Shown here: positions 8,108 to 64,000 of the stretch, piece by piece
Position numbering within the stretch: the first letter of the stretch is position 1
Layout: each line of letters opens with the position of its first letter
From: Halichondria panicea
Lineage: Eukaryota; Porifera; Demospongiae; Suberitida; Halichondriidae
Reading direction: 5' to 3'
NCBI RefSeq assembly: GCF_963675165.1
Contig: NC_087379.1
Span: 5,163,442 to 5,227,441 of the forward strand
DNA: 64,000 nt
Made by a program: the position numbers and the translations under genes
The notes under the pieces: model-generated
The model's input: the letters and a program-made list of their open reading frames with translations, nothing else
Databases searched by the model: none
Told to the model about the DNA's origin: nothing

Positions 8108-17925
<9,818 letters not shown>

Positions 17926-54300: not shown

Positions 54301-57300
54301 ATCCAAACAAGTGGCTACCGTATTACTAGAATATTTTGCGGGTGAAAAACCTTTGTGAATGAGCAGAACATTTGACCCTTTGCGATCTAACTATTGCGTT
54401 CTAGCAAGGATCGTGTGTATAGTAATAATTTAGGTTTTGCGGATTTTATTGTTGCGAATTGATCAACCATCGCAAAGTTTCAGTTTGATGCTCGCAAAAC
54501 ATTCTAGTAATACGGTATGTGTGGCCATAACTTACATGTAGTCTAGAGTGTCCAATTAAAATGTAAATGGTGCATTCTGTAGTTCTTAAGAAGCCTATGA
54601 GAACATGTAACATTTTCGACTTGTTTTGTCATATCCTCTACACTGTACCTCACTCAGGTGACAATATTCTGACTGCGGTCTCGGTGGCCAAGGAGTGTCA
54701 GATGGTACCGTCAGGGAGTCGGGTTGTCATGGTGAAGGCCTCTTCAAGCGTGTGTGGTCCTCCCACCCTCTCTTATCATCTGCTGGAAGATCAGTCTGAC
54801 CTTTTGCACCTTCTGGAGTCTAACAATGGTGAGTATATAATAGTATAGGAAGAGAAATTCATGCATGAATACCGTATATGCTTGATCAGGAGCCGCGGCT
54901 ACTAAATGTTTCATTTTGCTGGAAGAGGAGGCTACAATTCGAGAGAAGCCACTGTTCAAGAGCGACGTTTATTAGCTCCAGCTAATTCAACAACCTTTAG
55001 TTTGTCATCAAAGGTTCTTTTCACCTGCATAAACTTGAACTCTGCCATGAGAAAGTCTTTATGAAGCACTAACAAGCTGCTACCTGTAGCTAGCTGCTAG
55101 TACTAATAATTTTTTTGACTGCCACGTGCAAAATGCTAGAGTCAAACTTCACTGAGGCTACTATTTGAGAACGGCTACTAAATGTTTCATTTTGCTAGCA
55201 AGGGAGGCTACTATTTAAGTGCGGCCTCTGATCGAGCATACGGTACATGGGAATATAGTACATACAATTGATCCATTATGTCCTGCACATACTAATTTCA
55301 ACTGTATTCCACTTTCACCCCAGCAGAGTTTGAGCCCACAATATCAGACAAACCCAACCCTCTCTCATTTGACTCCACCCACTGCCTCGCCTACCACCTA
55401 GCCGTGGACGGGAAAACATTCGCTCTCATTAAAGAGCACTTCACGGACTCCGTCTATCAGAGGGTGAGAAATGAACATGCTTGTGCAATATGTAACTACA
55501 ATGTACATGTAATAGTGTATGCTAAGAAAAGATTGTTGTGATTTTTTTTAGTGTGTTTATAATTTGTTGTTTCTTGCAGCTTCTTGTGAAGGGAACAGTG
55601 TTTGCTCGTATGTCACCCACACAAAAAGCAGAACTCGTCAATTCACTGATGGAGATCGGGTAAGACGGAAAGAATGTTCCTCCATTACCAAATACTGTGT
55701 ATCTTCCATTAGGTACGGTGTGTGCATGTGTGGAGATGGTGCCAACGACTGTAGGGTAGGTATTACATGTATGTGGTATCATTCATTGTCATGTGACCAT
55801 CATCCACATGACCATACAGGCGCTGAAGGCGGCCCACGCTGGAATTTCACTCTCGGAAACAGAAGCAAGTGTAGCATCTCCTTTCACCTCTAAAATCCCG
55901 GACATAACTTGTGTGCCCAAACTAATCAGGTAAGTTACGCCCCTCTGTACACACCCTCACAGTGAGGGACAAGCCGCCCACACACACACACACACACTCT
56001 TACATGAAATCTACCCTCACAGTAAAGGATGTGCATGCACACAGACACACACACCCTCACAGTTAGGGACGAGCTGCCCACACACACCCTTACACGAAAC
56101 CCACCCTCATGTAGTGAGAAACGAGCTGCCCACGCACACACCCTCACAGTAAGGGATGAGCTGCCCATGCACACACACACACACACACCTTCACAGGGAA
56201 GGACGAGCTGCCCTAGTGACCTCCTTCAGTGTGTTCAAGTACATGGCACTCTACTCCTTTGCTGAATTCATCTCTGCAGCCATTCTATACGCAGTAAGTT
56301 CGTTAACATGTGTATATATTCTTCTACTCATTCTTTGTGTCCTCTAGTACGAGTCCAATCTGGGTGATCAGCAGTACCTCTACATTGACCTCATCCTCGC
56401 ACTCTGTGTCTCCTTCACTAGTAAGATTAAACCTGTTTGTTCTCGTCTCTCATCTACACATACATGTACATGTATCTTTGTGGTGTGGTACTGAATTTCT
56501 CTCATAATTATTGTCTACATGAATAAAGTAGCTTCTAAAGATGTCTGCAAATGAAGAAATACTGACCCCACCCTCCTCCCCCCTTCCAGTGGGTTTCACA
56601 GCATCGTACCCTCAGCTGGTCAAGAAACGACCTCTAGGCACGTTGGCAGGGATACACGTCCTCCTCTCAATCGTGATACAGACCATTCTCCTTATAGTCT
56701 TCCAAGTAGGTGCTCTCTGCTACCTCTCAACACGATCATGGTAAGGCCAGCAATATACTACTCAATTTGAGTGTTTTAACAGTAGCTCATGATACTTTAT
56801 GGATATTATAAAATAACAATTAACGTACATGATAGCTAATAGAACCTTAACGTGCCACAGAATTCAACTTGCGTGCTGCATTAATTTTGTCACTTTTTAT
56901 AATTATTGTCTGGTCAGCATATTTTTTAACCCTCTAGGTATGTGCCACTGATACCAGACCCTGAATCTGATAATATCAATTCCCAAGAGAACTCTGTGAT
57001 CTTCCAGTTTGCTAACTTTCAGTACCTCGGCCTCAGTGTGGCACTGTCTACAGGTGCTCCGTTCAGACGACCACTCTTCACAAACTGTGAGAGCTGTAAA
57101 CCTAACCCTTAACCCCTTACTTTCACCGACCATTAGTTTCTAGACTATAATAACTGACGTATATTTACAACCTTAGCATACGTACATGTACGTGTCCCTA
57201 TCCACATTCGCTCTGTACACACAGCATAATGCATGATAATGAGAAGGGGATCATTGTGTCCCTGAGCTCTTTGTGTAGTGTATTTCAGCTGAAAACTTGA

Positions 57301-58596
57301 ACTAGTTGTACAGTGTATGAGAATTCTAGGAAATTATTTGCACCCTCATTCCCACTCCCCCCCCCCCACATACACACCCTAGTCACACCTAACCCACCCA
57401 CCCCCCCCACACACACACTCTAGTCACACCTAACCCCCCCCCCACACACACACACACACACAAACACGCACACACAGATTGGTTTGTGCTGACGCTGGCA
57501 GTTCTTTTCTTCTTCAACCTCTACATCATGCTCGCCCCTGCCAGTTGGTTTCCATGGTTATGGGGTGTGCTGAACGTTTTGCCATTCTCCAACTGGATGT
57601 TCAAAATTGGACTTCTGGAGCTAGCACTGCTCTACATTGTCCTCAGCTATTTCATTGAGGTGACTTCATACGTGGATATCTGTATCTGTATTTGTATACG
57701 CAGTTTTTGTCGTATGTTTCTGCTAGCTTTCTTCTTTCATTTGCGGAAATTCGTTTTATCGTATTAACGGATTATTTCGAGAGCATATAACTTTCGCGCT
57801 TTTTCTGTTTAAGCATGCACCATGATCACCAATCTCACATGTGTGCATGCGCCAAAACGCTGATACTCTAAATCTGCGAATTCCTTTCTAACGTTCTTTC
57901 CGCAGAAGTTTATACCCTTGAAATAATTATATGCGTTACGGTGCTTCTAGCCGATAATAATTGATTCAGTATCCTTGATGAAACACAAGTTTGTAGCAGG
58001 TAAGCCTCCTGCAGGCGTGCCTGTGTGACCTCAGGCTAAGAAGGTTCCCATCTGAGCTGCTATGACCCGCTGCAGGCGTGCCTGTGACCTCAAGACTCTC
58101 TGTGTCTTGTCTGAGCTTCATTGCCCTAAGTAGCTAGCTGCTAGTTGTTGTGCCCATGCGCAGCAATTCACTTAAAAGTTGGTAAAGGATCATGAGTATC
58201 AAAAGCGAATTATCGTGCCAGTCCATTACATACGTACCTACAGACAGACAGACAGACAAAATTGCAGCGCTGAAGACTAGCTAGGGACTCGATTCGCTCG
58301 CCCTGATTATAGTGCATGTACGTGTACACTGTAGGTCATTTGAATTATTGTCGATGTACATTGTACAGGGGTACAATGTAGCTGTGTTCTACTCCTGTTA
58401 TGACTAAGATATTACCCCCTCCCTCCCCCCTTTCCACCCTCCGTAGGCGTACATCCTACCTTCTGAGTGGGTGCGAGTCATTCTGCGCTGGGTGCGCTGC
58501 AAACGTCGTCCCAAGAACCGTTACAAGCACATACTAACATCACTACCCCCGTCTTGGCCACCTGTCACCTTTGAACCCAGCAACAGGAATCAATGA
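30302..58596 (+). CDS. ATP13A: P5B-type ATPase (ATP13A2/ATP13A3-like), complete
   Basis: Twenty-eight exons were assembled: 30302-30317, 30547-30719, 32181-32348, 32778-32944, 33395-33514, 33847-33992, 34599-34724, 34886-35017, 44939-45094, 45376-45486, 51831-52023, 52169-52273, 52740-52884, 53206-53337, 53473-53581, 53809-53923, 54066-54190, 54658-54828, 55324-55463, 55580-55659, 55713-55755, 55820-55929, 56197-56293, 56348-56420, about 56541-56740, 56938-57086, 57478-57659 and 58447-58596. The product is about 1,210 aa, within the family range. Diagnostic P-type motifs are present: TGES (exons 8/9), PPALP in M4 (exon 11, the P5B signature), DKTGT with the phosphorylated Asp (exon 12), KGAPE (exon 15), TGDN (exon 18) and GDGAND (exon 21). 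The family exports polyamines from late endosomes/lysosomes. All junctions fit GT-AG and phase except exon 24/25. Introns 8 and 10 host other genes. Confidence 0.93.
31000..31964. mobile_element. Long terminal-inverted-repeat element, noncoding (~965 bp)
   Basis: The left end GGGTTGTGATAAAACAGGGA, followed by ATGAGAAATGAGGAAAT, is mirrored at the right by ATTTCTCATTCCCTG, then TTTTATCACCACCC. GAGAGTATCACTTGGA occurs just outside both ends (from about 30977 and from about 31965), consistent with a target duplication that later acquired an indel. It lies in ATP13A intron 2 and has no convincing ORF. Confidence 0.7.
32979..33027. repeat. Short palindrome with flanking direct repeat
   Basis: AGGAGTGCATGAATA, a 3-base spacer, then TATTCATGCACTCCT form a perfect hairpin. 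GACTCAAT is repeated directly on both sides. It may be a minimal foldback insertion. It lies in ATP13A intron 4. Confidence 0.7.
34290..34546. mobile_element. Inverted-repeat element, TACCGTA type
   Basis: The left end TACCGTATAGCGCGAAATTT is mirrored by GAACATTTCGCGCTATACGGTA. Internal segments (GGTTAGCAATCC, TCCACG) resemble the element at 27163, so the two belong to one subfamily. It lies in ATP13A intron 6. Confidence 0.85.
35267..35318. repeat. Near-perfect 52-bp palindrome
   Basis: GTGTAGAT-TTATAGAAACAGAG is mirrored by CTCTGTTTCTATAGATCTACAC with almost no loop. It could extrude as a cruciform. No known function. Confidence 0.75.
36131..36400. repeat. Tandem duplication of a ~135-bp unit
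   Basis: Two adjacent copies (36131-36268 and 36269-36400) both contain GCTCGCTGACAGCGGCTGTA and GTGACCGGAAGCCACACC and end in CGGTTAGTGTATT. They are nearly identical. No ORF. Confidence 0.85.
36646..36793. mobile_element. Inverted-repeat element with AGAGGwGGTACGACA ends
   Basis: CCAGAGGTGGTACGACATGC, then AGGAGCAAT, is mirrored by ATTGCTCCT, then GCATGTCGTACCTCCTCTGG. A 7-bp direct repeat TGTTGAA abuts both ends. The terminal sequence is shared with the element at 38864-39033. Confidence 0.78.
36885..37632. repeat. Large imperfect inverted repeat (~750 bp)
   Basis: ACAGTGCCTT near the left edge and AAGGCACTGT near the right edge pair. So do GGAACATTTCTAAGAAA (36955) and its complement TTTCTTAGAAATGTTCC (37523). 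Two internal copies of a CCTTAGCCGA...TTCCATCGCTAAGCGA stretch are present near 37197 and 37352. No ORF of note. Probably a foldback element. Confidence 0.6.
37645..38700 (-). CDS. MATH-BTB domain protein (SPOP-like), intronless
   Basis: A single uninterrupted frame of 351 aa. Residues about 55-160 have the pattern of a MATH/TRAF-like beta-sandwich ([18 protein letters not shown]). Residues about 165-290 are a BTB/POZ domain ([58 protein letters not shown]). A BACK-like tail follows, with a basic C-terminus (AAKRLKL) that could be a nuclear signal. Proteins of this type are substrate adaptors for Cullin-3 ubiquitin ligases: MATH recruits the substrate and BTB binds Cul3. It lies antisense in ATP13A intron 8, is free of introns unlike most genes here, and could derive from a retrocopy, though no poly(A) tail is visible. 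Confidence 0.85.
   Translation of the reverse strand: MATSNNFVKAEFCHQSEKSKFLSSSDGVSNVQRKPQRPVYGGLLGYNQINQTKSDYGINRWELAYKSNVLHLTLLSGAASAEVHYFVYVQYYYRENKKETVFSSGSATIQRGVSTGLNMCYYESTKPLKMSYHSPEAKTFIEFCILRLNPVVEIPERSTLSAALSSTLDNDKDLNDVMLYFGKEKELVQASKFLLTARSPVFKIMFEADMKEAAANEVTIDDITPAVGKEMIAYIYTDKAPKIRSMAEKLWFAAEKYQLPGLKALCENEIVKQLDVDNAAHFFLFAGSYCGDGKFKEYVLSFITKDKDTCSKVMRSDEWTEVKKFPELAFAVSDKFFDVTAEPAAKRLKLI
38864..39034. mobile_element. Inverted-repeat element with AGGAGGTACGACA ends
   Basis: AGGAGGTACGACAACATCAT, then GTGCGTGAACAATGGAAT, is mirrored by ATTCCATTGTTCACG...ACGTGATGTTGTCGTACCTCCT. It has the same terminal family as 36646-36793. No ORF. Confidence 0.8.
39600..39837. mobile_element. 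Mutator-like foldback element with 9-bp target-site duplication
   Basis: It begins TAGCCTCGAGACCAGCCGTT and ends AACGGCTGGTCTCGAGGCTA. The inverted arms run on for about 65 bp and include CTTGACCAGGCGTTCTTTCA. A perfect 9-bp direct repeat AGTTAAGGT flanks it at 39591-39599 and 39838-39846. It is the same family as 18132-18203. Noncoding. Confidence 0.9.
40385..40996 (+). pseudogene. Decayed Gag fragment of a Ty3/gypsy-like retrotransposon
   Basis: Across shifted frames the plus strand reads FEIARFNRR, then [20 protein letters not shown], then [16 protein letters not shown], which are typical of the retrotransposon Gag core. A Cys/His region [15 protein letters not shown]...CHNC (about 40777-40860) then gives zinc knuckles. 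DDAFLGAV follows near the end, as seen at the start of the protease/RT part. Frameshifts and stops are present and no LTR is visible. It lies in ATP13A intron 8. Confidence 0.78.
41149..41651. mobile_element. Inverted-repeat element with TAGTCTCGCGAG ends, copy 1
   Basis: The left end TAGTCTCGCGAGTATACG and the right end CTCGCGAGACTA are inverted. The internal halves match, in reverse orientation, the element at 42400-42805: GTGCAAGATATTTGTTAATT versus its complement, and TTGGCACTGCCAACATTCCG versus its complement. No coding region and no clear target duplication. Confidence 0.78.
41801..42364. mobile_element. Long foldback element (~560 bp)
   Basis: TAGTCCTTTTCAGATAAAGC at the left is mirrored by GCTTTATCTGAAAAGGACTA at the right. 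The arms extend nearly to the centre: AGATAAGAGTGAAGGTAGGC pairs with GCCTACCTTCACTCTTATCT around 41970-42065. The two arms differ by scattered substitutions. No ORF. It sits between two TAGTCTCGCGAG elements of opposite orientation. Confidence 0.85.
42400..42805. mobile_element. Inverted-repeat element with TAGTCTCGCGAG ends, copy 2, 9-bp target-site duplication
   Basis: TAGTCTCGCGAGCAGAC is mirrored by GTCTGCTTGCGAGACTA. A perfect 9-bp direct repeat GCATCGGTG flanks it at 42391-42399 and 42806-42814. Orientation is opposite to copy 1 at 41149. Noncoding. The 9-bp duplication suggests Mutator-type mobilisation. Confidence 0.87.
43178..44662 (-). CDS. TRAF-type E3 ligase/adaptor (RING, TRAF zinc fingers, coiled coil, MATH), intronless
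   Basis: A single open frame of 494 aa. Residues about 35-73 are a RING finger ([32 protein letters not shown]). Residues about 85-225 hold TRAF-type Cys/His zinc fingers ([56 protein letters not shown]). Residues about 240-330 are a coiled coil. Residues about 345-490 are a MATH/TRAF-C domain ([40 protein letters not shown]). This full TRAF order fits receptor-proximal signalling adaptors of innate immunity and cell death, acting in the cytoplasm. The gene lies antisense in ATP13A intron 8 without introns, like its MATH-BTB neighbour. Which TRAF subtype it equals cannot be said. Confidence 0.9.
   Translation of the reverse strand: MTEKEEQKSELLSIKEGGFDCEFLEPPPEILQTECPVCLQIIREPHQVTCCGYSYCQSCIEQIKADNKPCTKCNSEKFDDFPDKRLRNTLYAFKIRCSHKRDGCKWTGELGQLDEHLDPNPTLEKQLNVCQFVEITCSHCGDRKKRQDLANHGNNCSKRPISCEYCNDYTSHQDNVIHNHWPVCGSFPVRCPNECGSTLQRQNLDSHVAKECPLTTINCDFHHMGGCAVKLSRQNMPEHLRENLITHISLLASSHAKQQDEIKQITQEKKNMKSEIENLSENHRIQEAATNRIKAQCNEISAQNKYIKIDLKSLKEENSKLRQELSLLTNQVRTEVTDVLARASFPLIPSAVLVMTDFQHHKKNSDEWLSPPVYTHHQGYKLRLGVYANGHGVGEGSHVAVSVYIIKGEFDNYLKWPFRGVIWFRLLDQVKGEEHRCGSNTYDEKVSGRLCGRAREGEQLSGLGLNKFIAILKLEPKYLKNDTLHFQIHKMQLS
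45487..47130. other. First part of ATP13A intron 10
   Basis: No gene recognised. It contains a short foldback around 45553-45606 (GTGTTTTATG...CATAAAACAC), a perfect hairpin at 46326-46420, and two tandem-like copies of a GTGACCCT..TGGTACGGGATCACTTCA stretch at about 46431-46460 and 46520-46560. Confidence 0.6.
46326..46420. repeat. Perfect 38-bp-arm hairpin, 19-nt loop
   Basis: CTAGAATCACAGCAAAGACA, then GCAAAGAGGAGTCTTAGA, is repeated exactly in inverted orientation (46383-46420), with a loop CAGGAGCCATACATTTTTC. It lies in ATP13A intron 10 and would be transcribed with it. Perfect arms fit a recent foldback insertion. A small-RNA precursor is possible but unsupported. Confidence 0.85.
47222..47551 (-). 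CDS. Small secreted cationic Cys-peptide precursor 1, nested in ATP13A intron 10
   Basis: One exon, 109 aa. Residues 3-22 are a signal peptide ([20 protein letters not shown]). An acidic propiece ([20 protein letters not shown]) follows, then from about residue 54 a basic, aromatic segment ([17 protein letters not shown]) with four cysteines in two C-x6-C pairs. The layout of signal, acidic propiece and cationic C-terminal region is that of antimicrobial-peptide precursors. I know no family with this exact sequence, and a hormone or toxin-like role is equally open. A TATA box (TATAAAA, minus strand, 47631-47637) lies about 80 bp upstream of the start. The paralogue is at 50064-50429. The second Met (MNKL) is conserved between the copies and is the probable start. 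Confidence 0.72.
   Translation of the reverse strand: MKMNKLILLATFLAVAVSMIHAMPNMESEDEDDDDEMQAFLQEIEMARSTGSMAKAQWRWFRRVAEKVCRVVNVACTRAERRAKIEAGNLDADSESVCSVATRVCSFGR
47631..47637 (-). promoter_or_regulatory. TATA box of peptide gene 1
   Basis: TATAAAA on the minus strand, about 80 bp before the start codon, within GAGGTTGTATAAAA. The same block precedes peptide gene 2 and recurs a third time at 50803-50809 without a gene. Confidence 0.65.
49167..49361 (+). pseudogene. Frameshifted upstream copy of ATP13A exon 11
   Basis: This copy of the exon at 51831-52023 is 195 bp instead of 193. A 2-bp insertion (GTGTATACACC versus GTGTACACC) near 49182-49187 shifts the frame, so that inclusion would give a premature stop. 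The acceptor is kept, and the donor is GTGTTT instead of GTGAAG. The shifted frame still holds the PPALP membrane segment further on. It must be skipped, or acts as a poison exon. Confidence 0.88.
49629..49710. mobile_element. Short TACCG..TACGGTA hairpin element
   Basis: TACCGGTGTATTATAAGTTTC is loosely mirrored by CTCGCTATAATATTATACGGTA. It is a short member of the TACCGTA-ended group. It lies between the two duplication units. Confidence 0.5.
49738..49923. mobile_element. Inverted-repeat element with G-run, AGGGTGTCATACAGG ends
   Basis: AGGGTGTCATACAGG followed by a G-run is mirrored by CCTGTATGACACCCT. GAGCTCC and GAGCTCT flank the element and may be a 7-bp target duplication with one change. 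It contains runs of 8-10 G or C. Confidence 0.75.
50064..50429 (-). CDS. Small secreted cationic Cys-peptide precursor 2, nested in ATP13A intron 10
   Basis: One exon, 121 aa from the conserved MNKL start. An upstream in-frame extension to 50519 overlaps the TATA region and is unlikely to be translated. The signal peptide [20 protein letters not shown] differs from copy 1 at one residue. The acidic propiece is similar ([20 protein letters not shown]). The C-terminal part is strongly basic ([20 protein letters not shown]). It is about a dozen residues longer than in copy 1 before the first Cys and has four cysteines in C-x7-C and C-x6-C pairs. The role is unknown; a secreted defence peptide is the leading guess. 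A TATA box lies at 50510-50516 on the minus strand. Leader conserved and mature part diverged is typical of host-defence peptide families. Confidence 0.72.
   Translation of the reverse strand: MNKLILLATFLAVAVSVIHAMPNMESNDENNDDEIQALLQEIEIARSAGSMAKTQWRVRFRGVRRIIRQVANVVKKVCKVVPAIPCTRTEIKANIETENQIADSEAICTAAKTVCRFVNIG
50510..50516 (-). promoter_or_regulatory. TATA box of peptide gene 2
   Basis: TATAAAA on the minus strand, in the same GAGGTTGTATAAAA block as peptide gene 1, about 80 bp upstream of the MNKL start. Confidence 0.65.
50787..50945 (-). promoter_or_regulatory. Orphan copy of the peptide-gene promoter
   Basis: This repeats the block with TATAAAA (50803-50809) and the conserved upstream sequence (TGATGGTGAGGAATCCACAC on the minus strand) found before both peptide genes. 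Downstream on the minus strand, no coding sequence of the peptide follows. It is probably a leftover of a further unequal duplication. Confidence 0.7.
54316..54517. mobile_element. Inverted-repeat element, TACCGTA type
   Basis: TACCGTATTACTAGAATATT is mirrored by ACATTCTAGTAATACGGTA. Internal TTTGCGA/TCGCAAA pairs are also present. It lies in ATP13A intron 17. It was copied with exon 17 to 24205-24833. Confidence 0.87.
54870..55245. mobile_element. Inverted-repeat element, TACCGTA type, with internal direct repeats
   Basis: TACCGTATATGCTTGATCAG is mirrored by CTGATCGAGCATACGGTA. GGCTACTAAATGTTTCATTT followed by TGCT occurs twice inside (about 54897 and 55173). It lies in ATP13A intron 18. 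No ORF. Confidence 0.83.
55945..56197. repeat. Degenerate minisatellite made of 3' splice-site copies, ATP13A intron 22
   Basis: Four to five units of CCCTCACAGTnAGGGAnGAGCTGCCC plus CA-rich spacer precede exon 23. The exon's own junction reads CCTTCACAG|GGAAGGACGAGCTGCCC, so each unit resembles the pyrimidine tract, AG and first 17 or so exon bases. Unit length is about 35-55 bp with variable CA runs. Confidence 0.8.
58005..58130. repeat. Direct repeat CTGCAGGCGTGCCTGTG
   Basis: Two copies of CTGCAGGCGTGCCTGTG(TG)ACCTCA about 60 bp apart, followed by similar TCTGAGCT stretches. A short (CAGA)n run follows at about 58239-58257. It lies in the last ATP13A intron, in which nothing else was recognised. 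Confidence 0.6.
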
Positions 58597-59840: not shown

Positions 59841-62800
59841 ATGGCTGATGGAGGATCAGGACTGCAAGATGATGAACTCTATCTGCCCAGGAGTGAGTCA
59901 TCCACGTCAGCACCCTTGAGAGGCATAGTAGCCATCGTGTTACCCTTTCCTTGTAGATATATAATATTCAATCCTCTAATGCACCTGGCTCATCACAGTC
60001 TCTTTTATTATAATATGCAGCTGTGGTGAACAAGCTCATCAAGGAGATTGTGCCCAACATTAGAGTCTCTACTGACGCTAGAGACCTCCTCCTCAACTGC
60101 TGCACAGGTCAGCATCTCTTACGAATTGTAACTACCCAGTTACCCTATATACAGTCTATATAAGGTGTCACTAAAAAATAGCACGTTTGCGCGAGACTAT
60201 ACAAGCCTTCATGTATGTACTGTACACATGTGCTATGTAGGTGAAACGTCCACTGTCGCATGTAGTATGAGGGTCGCTTTATCTATACGGTGGAGTGCTT
60301 GCTTATGTAATGTAGTCTATGTATAGGTAGGCAGAGTCTCCTCAATAGGCCATTGACAAAAAAAGATCTATCATTCCTAGGCTGGGTACCCTACCAGTGG
60401 CTATAGGCTACGTATAAGTTATGTCCTCCTGTTCATTCAGAGTTCCAGCTGATTCTGAGTTCCTTGTACACTTGAGGAATGTTTGTGTAGTAGAGTTGCA
60501 TACATGGTAGAGTTCATCTACCTACATGTATGCACTCTTCTTCTTGTGTAGAGTTGATCCCCTATATATGCACTCTTCTCGTGTAGCGTTGATCCCCTAT
60601 ATATGCACTCTTCTCGTGTAGAGTTGATCCACCTATATATGTACTCTCCTCGTGTAGAGTTGATCCCCTATATATGTACTCTTCTTCTTGTGTAGAGTTG
60701 ATCCACCTATATATGCACTCTTCTCATGTAGAGTTGATCTGCCTATATATGCACTCTTCTCGTGAGAGTTGATCCCCTATATATATGCACTCTTCTCGTG
60801 TAGAGTTGATCCCCTATATATGCACTCTTCTCGTGTAGCGTTGATCCCCTATATATGCACTCTTCTCGTGTAGAGTTGATCCACCTATATATGTACTCTT
60901 CTCGTGTAGAGTTGATCCCCTATATATGTACTCTTCTTCTTGTGTAGAGTTGATCCACCTATATATGCACTCTTCTTGTGTAGAGTTGATCTGCCTATAT
61001 ATGCACTCTTCTCGTGAGAGTTGATCCCCTATATATATGCACTCTTCTCGTGTAGAGTTGATCCCCTATATATGCACTCTTCTCGTGTAGCGTTGATCCC
61101 CTATATGTGCACTCTTCTTGTGTAGAGTTGATCCCCTATATATGTACTCTTCTCGTGTAGAGTTGATCCCCTATATATGTACTCTTCTCGTGTAGAGTTG
61201 ATCCCCTATATATGTACTCTTCTCGTGTAGAGTTGATCCCCTATATATGCACTCTTCTCGTGTAGAGTTGATCCGCCTATATATGCACTCTTCTCGTGAG
61301 AGTTGATCCCCTATATATATGCACTCTTCTCGTGTAGAGTTGATCCCCTATATATGCACTCTTCTTGTGTAGAGTTGATCACCTATATATGCACTCTTCT
61401 TGTGTAGAGTTGATCCCCTATATATATGCACTCTTCTCGTGTAGAGTTGATCCCCTATATATGTACTCTTCTCGTGTAGAGTTGATCCCCTATATATGTA
61501 CGTACTCTTCTTGTGTAGAGTTGATCACCTATATATGCACTCTTCTCGTGTAGAGTTGATCCCCTATATATGTACTCTTCTCGTGTAGAGTTGATCCCCT
61601 ATACATGTATATGTACTCTTCTCGTGTAGAGTTGATCCCCTATATGTGCACTCTTCTCGTGTAGAGTTGATCCCCTATATATGCACTCTTCTTGTGTAGA
61701 GTTGATCCCCTATATGTGCACTCTTCTCGTGTAGAGTTGATCCCCTATATATGCACTCTTCTTGTGTAGAGTTGATCCCCTATATGTGCACTCTTCTCGT
61801 GTAGAGTTGATCCCCTATATATGTACTCTTCTCGTGTAGAGTTGATCCCCTATATGTGCACTCTTCTCGTGTAGAGTTGATCCCCTATATATGCACTCTT
61901 CTTGTGTAGAGTTGATCCCCTATATGTGCACTCTTCTCGTGTAGAGTTGATCCCCTATATATGTACTCTTCTCGTGTAGAGTTAATCCCCTATATAATTA
62001 TGCACTCTTCTCGTGTAGAGTTGATCCACCTATATAATTATGCACTCTTCTCGTGTAGAGTTGATCCCCTATATATGTACTCTTCTTGTGTAGAGTTGAT
62101 CCCCTATATATGCACTTTTCTCGTGTAGAGTTGATCCCCTATATATGTACTCTTCTTGTGTAGAGTTGATCCCCTATATATGCACTCTTCTCGTGTAGCG
62201 TTGATCCCCTATATATGCACTCTTCTTGTGTAGAGTTGATCCCCTATATATGCACTCTTCTCGTGTAGAGTTGATCCCCTATATATGCACTCTTCTCGTG
62301 TAGAGTTGATCCCCTATATATGTACTCTTTTCGTGTAGAGTTGATCCCCTATATATGCACTCTTCTCGTGTAGAGTTGATCCCCTATATATGTACTCTTC
62401 TCGTGTAGAGTTGATCCCCTATATATGCACTCTTCTTGTGTAGAGTTGATCACCTATATATGCACTCTTCTTGTGTAGAGTTGATCCCCTATATATATGC
62501 ACTCTTCTCGTGTAGAGTTGATCCCCTATATATGTACTCTTCTCGTGTAGAGTTGATCCCCTATATATGTACGTACTCTTCTTGTGTAGAGTTGATCACC
62601 TATATATGCACTCTTCTTGTGTAGAGTTAATCCCCTATATATGCACTCTTCTCGTGTAGAGTTAATCCCCTATATATGTACTCTTCTCGTGTAGAGTTGA
62701 TCCCCTATATATGTACTCTTCTCGTGTAGAGTTGATCCCCTATATGTGCACTCTTCTCGTGTAGAGTTGATCCCCTATATATGCACTCTTCTTGTGTAGA

Positions 62801-63859
62801 GTTGATCCCCTATATGTGCACTCTTCTCGTGTAGAGTTGATCCCCTATATATGCACTCTTCTTGTGTAGAGTTGATCCCCTATATGTGCACTCTTCTCGT
62901 GTAGAGTTGATCCCCTATATATGTACTCTTCTCGTGTAGAGTTAATCCCCTATATAATTATGCACTCTTCTTGTGTAGAGTTGATCCACCTATATAATTA
63001 TGCACTCTTCTCGTGTAGAGTTGATCCCCTATATATGTACTCTTCTTGTGTAGAGTTGATCCCCTATATATGCACTTTTCTCGTGTAGAGTTGATCCCCT
63101 ATATATGTACTCTTCTTGTGTAGAGTTGATCCCCTATATATGCACTCTTCTCGTGTAGCGTTGATCCCCTATATATGCACTCTTCTTGTGTAGAGTTGAT
63201 CCCCTATATATGCACTCTTCTCGTGTAGAGTTGATCCCCTATATATGTACTCTTCTCGTGTAGAGTTGATCCCCTATATATGTACTCTTCTCGTGTAGAG
63301 TTGATCCCCTATATATGTACTCTTCTCGTGTAGAGTTGATCCACCTATATATGCACTCTTCTCGTGTAGAGTTGATCCCCTATATATGTACTCTTCTTCT
63401 TGTGTAGAGTTGATCCACCTATATATGCACTCTTCTCGTGTAGAGTTGATCACCTATATATATGTACTCTTCTCGTGTAGAGTTGATCCACCTATATAAT
63501 TATGCACTCTTCTCGTGTAGAGTTGATCCACCTATATATGTACTCTTCTCGTGTAGAATTGATCCCCTATATATGTCGTGTAGAGTTGATCCACCTATAT
63601 ATGCACTCTTCTTCTTGTGTAGAGTTGATCCCCTATATATGTACTCTTCTCTCATGTAGAGTTGATCCGCCTATATACACTTTTCTCTCATGTAGAGTTC
63701 ATCCACCTGATAGCCAGTGAGGCCAGTGACATCTCTGAGAAACAAGCCAAGAAGGTCATCTCCCCTGAGCACGTTGTGGAGGCTCTGAGCACGTTGGGCT
63801 TTACTGAGTATGTGGTGGATGTCAAGGCCGTGCACAAAGAGTACAAAGAACAGGCCTCA
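59841..63859 (+). CDS. DR1: Dr1 / NC2-beta transcriptional repressor (5' three exons; continues past window)
   Basis: Three exons join in phase: 59841-59892, 60021-60107 and 63696-63859, and the last ends at a GTAAGT donor near the window edge. The protein starts MADGG, then DDELYLPR, continues VVNKLIKEIVPNIRVSTDAR, then LLNCCTEFIHLIASEASDIS, EKQAKKVISPEHVVEALSTL and GFTEYVVDVK. This is the histone-fold of Dr1 (NC2-beta), which pairs with DRAP1 (NC2-alpha) to bind TBP on promoters and block TFIIA/TFIIB. The C-terminal Gln-rich part lies beyond the window. Intron 2 (60108-63695) is almost entirely a minisatellite whose unit copies the acceptor and first bases of exon 3. Confidence 0.93.
60540..63705. 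repeat. ~3.1-kb minisatellite in Dr1 intron 2, unit about 35-36 bp
   Basis: The consensus unit is CACTCTTCTCGTGTAG followed by AGTTGATCCCCTATATATG, with variants TGTACT, TTCTTG, CCACC, CCGCC, CACC and TAATCC. Length divided by period gives roughly 85 copies (estimate). The last copy runs into exon 3: TCTCATGTAG|AGTTCATCCACCTGATAG. Short frames such as CRVDHLYMHSS repeats are translations of the array. Two large internal duplications are visible: 61365-61553 recurs at 62436-62624 (offset 1071 bp), and about 61990-62230 recurs at about 62950-63190 (offset 960 bp). Confidence 0.95.
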
Positions 63860-64000
63860 GTAAGTGCAGTACACATAGTAATTATTAAGCATGGATTAGG
63901 TTTATAGCAAGAGTGCATGTACTCTTGGTTGTAGGTACTGTAATTTTAGTGCATCCATGTACACGCATGCAGCTACATATACGTATCTCAAACTCAAAAG

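Follow-up and report, generated by a model that had tools for sequence, protein, structure and literature searches.

The window analysed here is a 64,000-nucleotide stretch of the Halichondria panicea genome (C3:5163442-5227441), within a scanned assembly of 131 Mb and 39 contigs. At the right end of the window lies Dr1 (NC2-beta), as shown by the match of its spliced protein to human NC2-beta (1jfi_B, E 8.8e-47); this protein is 100% identical, over the 138 residues searched, to P0002, the 'protein Dr1-like isoform X2 [Halichondria panicea]'. The main features of this locus, and of the other introns discussed below, are collected in Table 1. The second intron of Dr1 is long: it spans 3588 nt, when the 247 predicted introns have a median length of 279 nt. 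The start of exon 3 at position 63696 is given concordantly by a gene finder trained on this genome and by the protein (EFIHLIASEASD). The NCBI H. panicea model P0002 also joins NCCT to EFIHL, which corresponds to the acceptor giving 63696; this model may be based on homology rather than on reads. Elsewhere in the protein, P0002 is devoid of the exon beginning SEMLEQQRLQQ of the gene model built here, with QQQME directly followed by APSVSTGG, from the exon that has the triplicated acceptor.

Table 1. Positions of the Dr1 features and of other introns with repeats next to their acceptor (window numbering unless another stretch is named)
Feature	Position	Strand	Basis
Dr1 exon 1 (start codon, MADGGSGLQDDELYLPR)	59841..59892	+	gene finder; P0002 has the same start
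Dr1 exon 2, 3' end ...AACTGCTGCACAG followed by GTCAGC; phase-1 intron after it	60021..60107	+	gene finder
Dr1 intron 2, 3588 nt	60108..63695	+	gene finder
5'-most copy GGTAGAGTTCATCTACCT, sole unit keeping the CATC of the exon	60506..60523	+	sequence, motif match
Minisatellite, period 35, 88.6 copies, end 9 nt inside exon 3	60539..63704	+	Tandem Repeats Finder
Block of seven units with an exact second copy 27 units (960 nt) downstream, starting at 62979	62019..62268	+	unit comparison; end from unit starts
AG of nearest and top-scoring decoy (5.16), exon start 63660, in frame, adds ELIRLYTLFSHV	63658..63659	+	matrix, ORF
AG of the true acceptor, score 6.68, at the 77th percentile among the 271 predicted ones	63694..63695	+	gene finder, matrix
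Dr1 exon 3, first 13 nt AGTTCATCCACCT, source of the repeated exon part	63696..63859	+	gene finder, protein
P-type-ATPase intron, own acceptor with about 18 nt of the next exon present in about five degenerate copies	55930..56196	+	junction alignment
Later Dr1 intron, 401 nt, tandem unit of about 125 nt with acceptor and exon start (TTAG followed by GCTCCTAGTG)	L009:2169-2569		
Intron preceding a PDZ-like exon in the same DLG5-like gene as the array below, one copy of acceptor with about 22 nt of exon, 4-nt insertion, changed AG	L032:6956-7191	-	
42-nt, 111-copy minisatellite filling most of an intron of the DLG5-like gene, end within 3 nt of the acceptor	L031:5129-9807	-	

Dr1 intron 2 contains 89 tandem units (60509-63695), mostly of 35 nt. 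In each unit, a pyrimidine tract and an AG are followed by a sequence close to the start of exon 3. The first-pass annotation of this DNA had described an array of acceptor-like units running into the exon, and this description is borne out by the repeat boundaries. A looser motif is found at 90 places including the true exon start, which leaves 89 intronic units; 60 of these are 35 nt long and 34 distinct unit types are observed. A degenerate junction-like 18-mer (up to three mismatches) occurs at 87 places in the window, true junction included; in 100 shuffles of the sequence, the average number of matches is 0.22 and none has more than 2. The initial estimate of about 85 decoys is corrected to 86 for those of TAG type.

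The likeness between the units and the start of exon 3, also proposed at first, is indeed in register with the AG, and is looser than claimed in most units. Twelve of the 13 exon bases are kept, with the AG in exact register, in the unit at the 5' edge and in 11 further ones, the latter reading AGTTGATCCACCT among the matches of the junction-like 18-mer. The common unit form, AGTTGATCCCCT, differs from the exon by one change and one lost base, and CTCTCATGTAG is common to the last decoy and the true site. The base equivalent to the C of the exon CATC is G in 84 of the 89 units, A in four and C only in the 5'-most one; the GATC initially attributed to the units is thus the rule, with AATC and CATC as the exceptions. 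Identical runs of seven, six and five units recur at distances of 27, 31 and 30 units, respectively. Such recurrences, and the repetition of the seven-unit block in particular, look like the sign of block exchange inside the array.

The repeat appears confined to this place in the assembly. When a 14-mer of the unit was searched in the 131 Mb (exact matches only, withheld stretches being read as N), it was found 68 times, always at the Dr1 locus, with no match for its reversed control, and the 42 alignments obtained with a two-unit query all fall at the same locus. A 24-letter unit pattern gave no match in the genome contig collection. A 15-mer of the unit was found in 33 viral contigs, with one match each, which was taken as chance.

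Further insights come from the proteins of other sources. P0105, a cluster of two sequences from two contigs of other sources, reads IRLYTLFSHVEFIHL, through the last decoy unit, and, the start M aside, differs from the window by one residue in the sequence shown; this unit is therefore present outside this assembly. Three other proteins look like read-throughs of an intron located where Dr1 intron 2 lies; its length is about 291 nt in P0081 (83% identical over 43% of the query), about 51 nt in P0011 and, by count, about 42 nt in P0104, and none of them has a second EFIHL. These introns are known from translated proteins, their extra residues being taken as intron. Among 18 ORFs listed, P0106 and P0111 join the exons directly, and P0104 reads through; 15 of the 18, P0105 included, start shortly upstream of EFIHL, and in most of these the length would not suffice for a copy to be visible. 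The first-pass annotation had pointed to the orthologous intron of related sponges: as judged from proteins, the same intron, devoid of array, is suggested in three apparent relatives. Since their intron would be short and lack the array, the latter looks lineage-specific and would not be needed for Dr1.

The strength of the acceptors was estimated with a matrix of 23 positions, trained on 271 of 276 predicted introns, Dr1 intron 2 and four doubtful ones being excluded. The training introns are gene-finder predictions, not transcripts, and the AUC against other intronic AGs is 0.948. None of the 172 AGs of the array scores as high as the true site. The median score of the 86 TAG decoys is 2.55 (34th percentile), about 4 bits below it, and the early description of 'near-equal acceptors' is not supported. 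As many as 83 of these decoys lie above the 25th percentile of the 271 predicted acceptors, and 6 above the median; credible decoys amount to 26 per kb, versus 3.7 per kb for the AGs of other introns. In these other introns, the number of AGs scoring at least as high as their own acceptor is 1.2 on average (median 0, maximum 63), so that a true site that beats the AGs of its intron is the usual state. Dr1 intron 2 is thus rich in plausible acceptors, none of which is near-equal to the true one.

Other splicing determinants were also considered. A branch point search (positions -45 to -14, 186 introns) gave 21 TTCAT and 14 TTGAT, the control stretch, which is longer, having 16 and 23 (log2 2.05 and 0.97, respectively). 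Enrichment is higher still for several further 5-mers, and a branch-point role of TTCAT or TTGAT is suggestive only. RNA structure did not stand out in three stretches of about four units (z -0.10, -1.26 and -1.64, with 87, 20 and 17 of 200 shuffles folding as well or better), and no Rfam family was found at gathering score between 59700 and 64000.

What would follow from the use of a decoy can be read from the frames. A stop is reached before the end of exon 3 from 85 of the 86 TAG decoys, in agreement with the initial proposal that a wrong choice would mostly lead to a stop. The stop was at first assigned to the TGA of TAGAGTTGA. It is instead usually the TAG of a later unit (74 decoys), and lies 11 codons on in 57 of the 86. 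The sole decoy without a stop is the one starting at 63660, which is in frame (ORF 63629-63907) and would insert its 12 residues before EFIHL. This exception brings to mind a situation where the decoys are active and benign, a steady small share of Dr1 pre-mRNA using them, including this in-frame site with its 12 additional residues in the histone fold. It is consistent with such a situation that the nearest decoy is open in frame and has the highest score of all decoys; this score is still below that of the true site, and the insert would fall within the histone-fold match (PF00808, residues 14-77), which makes this reading unlikely.

A regulatory role for the array appears very improbable. 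In the reading built on the first-pass annotation, near-equal decoys would compete with the true site, wrong splicing would lead to stops and decay, and the length of the array would set the Dr1 output through its copy number. This reading is favoured by the abundance of credible TAG decoys (83 of the 86 exceed the 25th percentile), by their density and by the stop that is met from 85 of the 86. The decoys are, however, never as strong as the true acceptor (0 of 172 AGs), the intron is devoid of array in three apparent relatives, as seen from their proteins, and the amphioxus 'mirages', which are minisatellites lying over intron-exon boundaries, are reported not to disturb splicing (PMC3087553, PMC3902484). 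It could also be imagined that the 86 mid-strength acceptors jointly load U2AF and branch-point factors and thereby slow or divert Dr1 splicing, in which case the dosage would follow a repeat number that mutates fast and might differ even between parts of the same sponge; we give this idea very little credence.

The origin of the repeated exon part was addressed by alignment. The best alignment of the exon 3 junction with Dr1 intron 2 has a score of 43, reached in none of 300 shuffles; for the exon part alone, in this repetitive intron, 5 of 300 shuffles do as well or better. The exon start encodes EFIHL, a motif that human Dr1 has unchanged and that was found in 96 of the 120 homologues listed. 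From these comparisons, the start of exon 3 is taken as the source of the copies, the direction being from exon to array, since it encodes this conserved motif. The case for this origin lies in the junction alignment, the register with the AG and the edge unit, and supports growth by tandem copying of the acceptor together with the first exon bases, as initially suggested. The distribution of CATC, GATC and AATC further suggests that the interior units were homogenised from a changed founder, the 5' edge unit being left behind. An ordinary intronic minisatellite, resembling the exon start by chance or having overwritten it, might find support in the exon-part shuffles (5/300) and in another H. 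panicea array, of 42 nt and 111 copies, that ends within 3 nt of the acceptor of a DLG5-like gene without a significant exon match; it is made highly improbable by the 12 of 13 exon bases kept in exact AG register in the 5' edge unit and 11 more, by the junction alignment (0/300) and by EFIHL being encoded as in human, which argues that the array did not rewrite the exon.

That 42-nt array belongs to the PDZ gene of contig C1, which we take to be DLG5-like from the look of its sequence. It was rejected as a second giant case for three reasons. The alignment does not reach the junction, from which it remains 3 nt away; on the exon side, the match lacks significance, 37 of 300 shuffles scoring as high or higher; and its 111 decoys are very weak acceptors, with a median under the 1st percentile of the predicted ones. 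It is thus counted as an array abutting an acceptor.

Other copied acceptors were surveyed in 299 readable kb (the window, L009-L028 and L029-L032), with 276 usable predicted introns and 17 dropped; junction-spanning own copies were tested in 244 of the 276. On the acceptor side, an own copy was found in 5 of 244 introns versus a mean of 0.1 in 10 swap sets, and on the donor side in 1 of 244 versus 0.3. By inspection, two of the acceptor rows and the donor row correspond to false exons inside the C1 satellite, and the acceptor row at 57087-57423 to a false exon in a CA tract. The acceptor cases left are Dr1 and the PDZ intron of the DLG5-like gene, with no donor case left. The P-type-ATPase intron and the later Dr1 intron, whose exons were wrong in the gene finder output, were found by eye during a look at acceptors. 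A bias of acceptors over donors is not established and not claimed, because of the small numbers and because these two cases were found in this way. On the donor side of five curated introns, no alignment across the donor junction was observed, the lowest shuffle counts being 1/100 (ATPase) and 5/100 (later Dr1).

Three smaller copied acceptors were thus retained in about 300 kb, in the P-type ATPase, the later Dr1 intron and the DLG5-like PDZ gene, the junction alignment being reached in 0 of 300 shuffles for each. In the ATPase, presumably of P5 type (ATP13A) from the look of its sequence and matched by PF00702 and PF13246 in a Pfam search with part of the gene, the junction alignment scores 59, with no value above 33 among 300 shuffles, and three copies score 5.97-8.18 as acceptors versus 9.42 for the true site. 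A C/CA-rich stretch (57357-57476) lies close to an acceptor of this ATPase gene, and a long CT-rich simple repeat is found at 8957-9216. In the later Dr1 intron, two copies upstream of the true site score 1.75 and 1.79 versus 2.57, and two other AGs, with 4.36 each, are above the true site. The exon start of these copies runs into a donor-like GTGAGT, 7 nt after the AG.

Altogether, we consider, with a probability of roughly 75%, that the Dr1 array is a large lineage-specific 'mirage', near-neutral, with at most minor transcript loss. The seed would have been a short tandem duplication that covered the acceptor of an intron already in place, together with the 13 nt that open exon 3, and growth to 89 copies would have occurred by unequal exchange or replication slippage in the Halichondria lineage. 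Splicing would mostly use the AG at 63694-63695, since no other acceptor is as strong or as near to the donor that follows exon 3. Decoys may be used in a small share of the transcripts, which would then be lost through stop codons, and the array is probably near-neutral. With 89 copies in a sponge and three smaller cases in about 300 kb, acceptor copying would suggest a broader mutational process of animals, which lengthens introns. The array also offers a natural test of splice-site choice, since the strong acceptor of this intron, in the gene of a general transcription regulator, is preceded by 86 credible acceptors of lower strength.

Among the titles and abstracts listed in the literature search, amphioxus is the only animal for which boundary-copying intronic minisatellites are described; a related case is human (PMC2812944), and no sponge case was seen. 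Subscription papers were mostly outside this search, which is thus weak evidence of absence. In human segmental duplications, tandem repeats are found at exon-intron boundaries and minisatellite expansion can activate cryptic splice sites (PMC2812944). Minisatellite expansion at an exon-intron boundary is common to these repeats and to the Dr1 array; the human repeats change exons and may become new introns, whereas the Dr1 copies are intronic and only their edge touches the exon. Intron gain by internal tandem duplication with AG/GT signals (Rogers 1989; Gao and Lynch 2009, as cited in PMC3087553) also shares with Dr1 that tandem duplication brings splice signals to new places. In contrast, it is an existing intron that would have grown in Dr1, and gain of a new intron at this position was discarded, the P0081, P0011 and P0104 proteins reading through an intron at the same place, which suggests a prior intron.

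The closest likeness is with the amphioxus mirages, of which the original paper is reportedly Canestro 2002. The mirages and the Dr1 array have in common tandem units that span the intron-exon boundary and contain splice signals, as well as edge units excluded from homogenisation (PMC3087553), and all these structural features of a mirage are found in Dr1. In amphioxus BflGb6, the 3' end of the intron is joined with the exon start, as in Dr1, and 6 and 3 copies are given for two haplotypes of this cephalochordate (PMC3087553), compared with 89 in the sponge; TnC and PGBD5 are further mirage cases (PMC3902484). The Dr1 units differ from the amphioxus mirages in that none includes more than 13 bases of the exon. 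Differences in length and undisturbed splicing are reported for the mirages; the Dr1 array is known from sequence, its length being that of one assembly.
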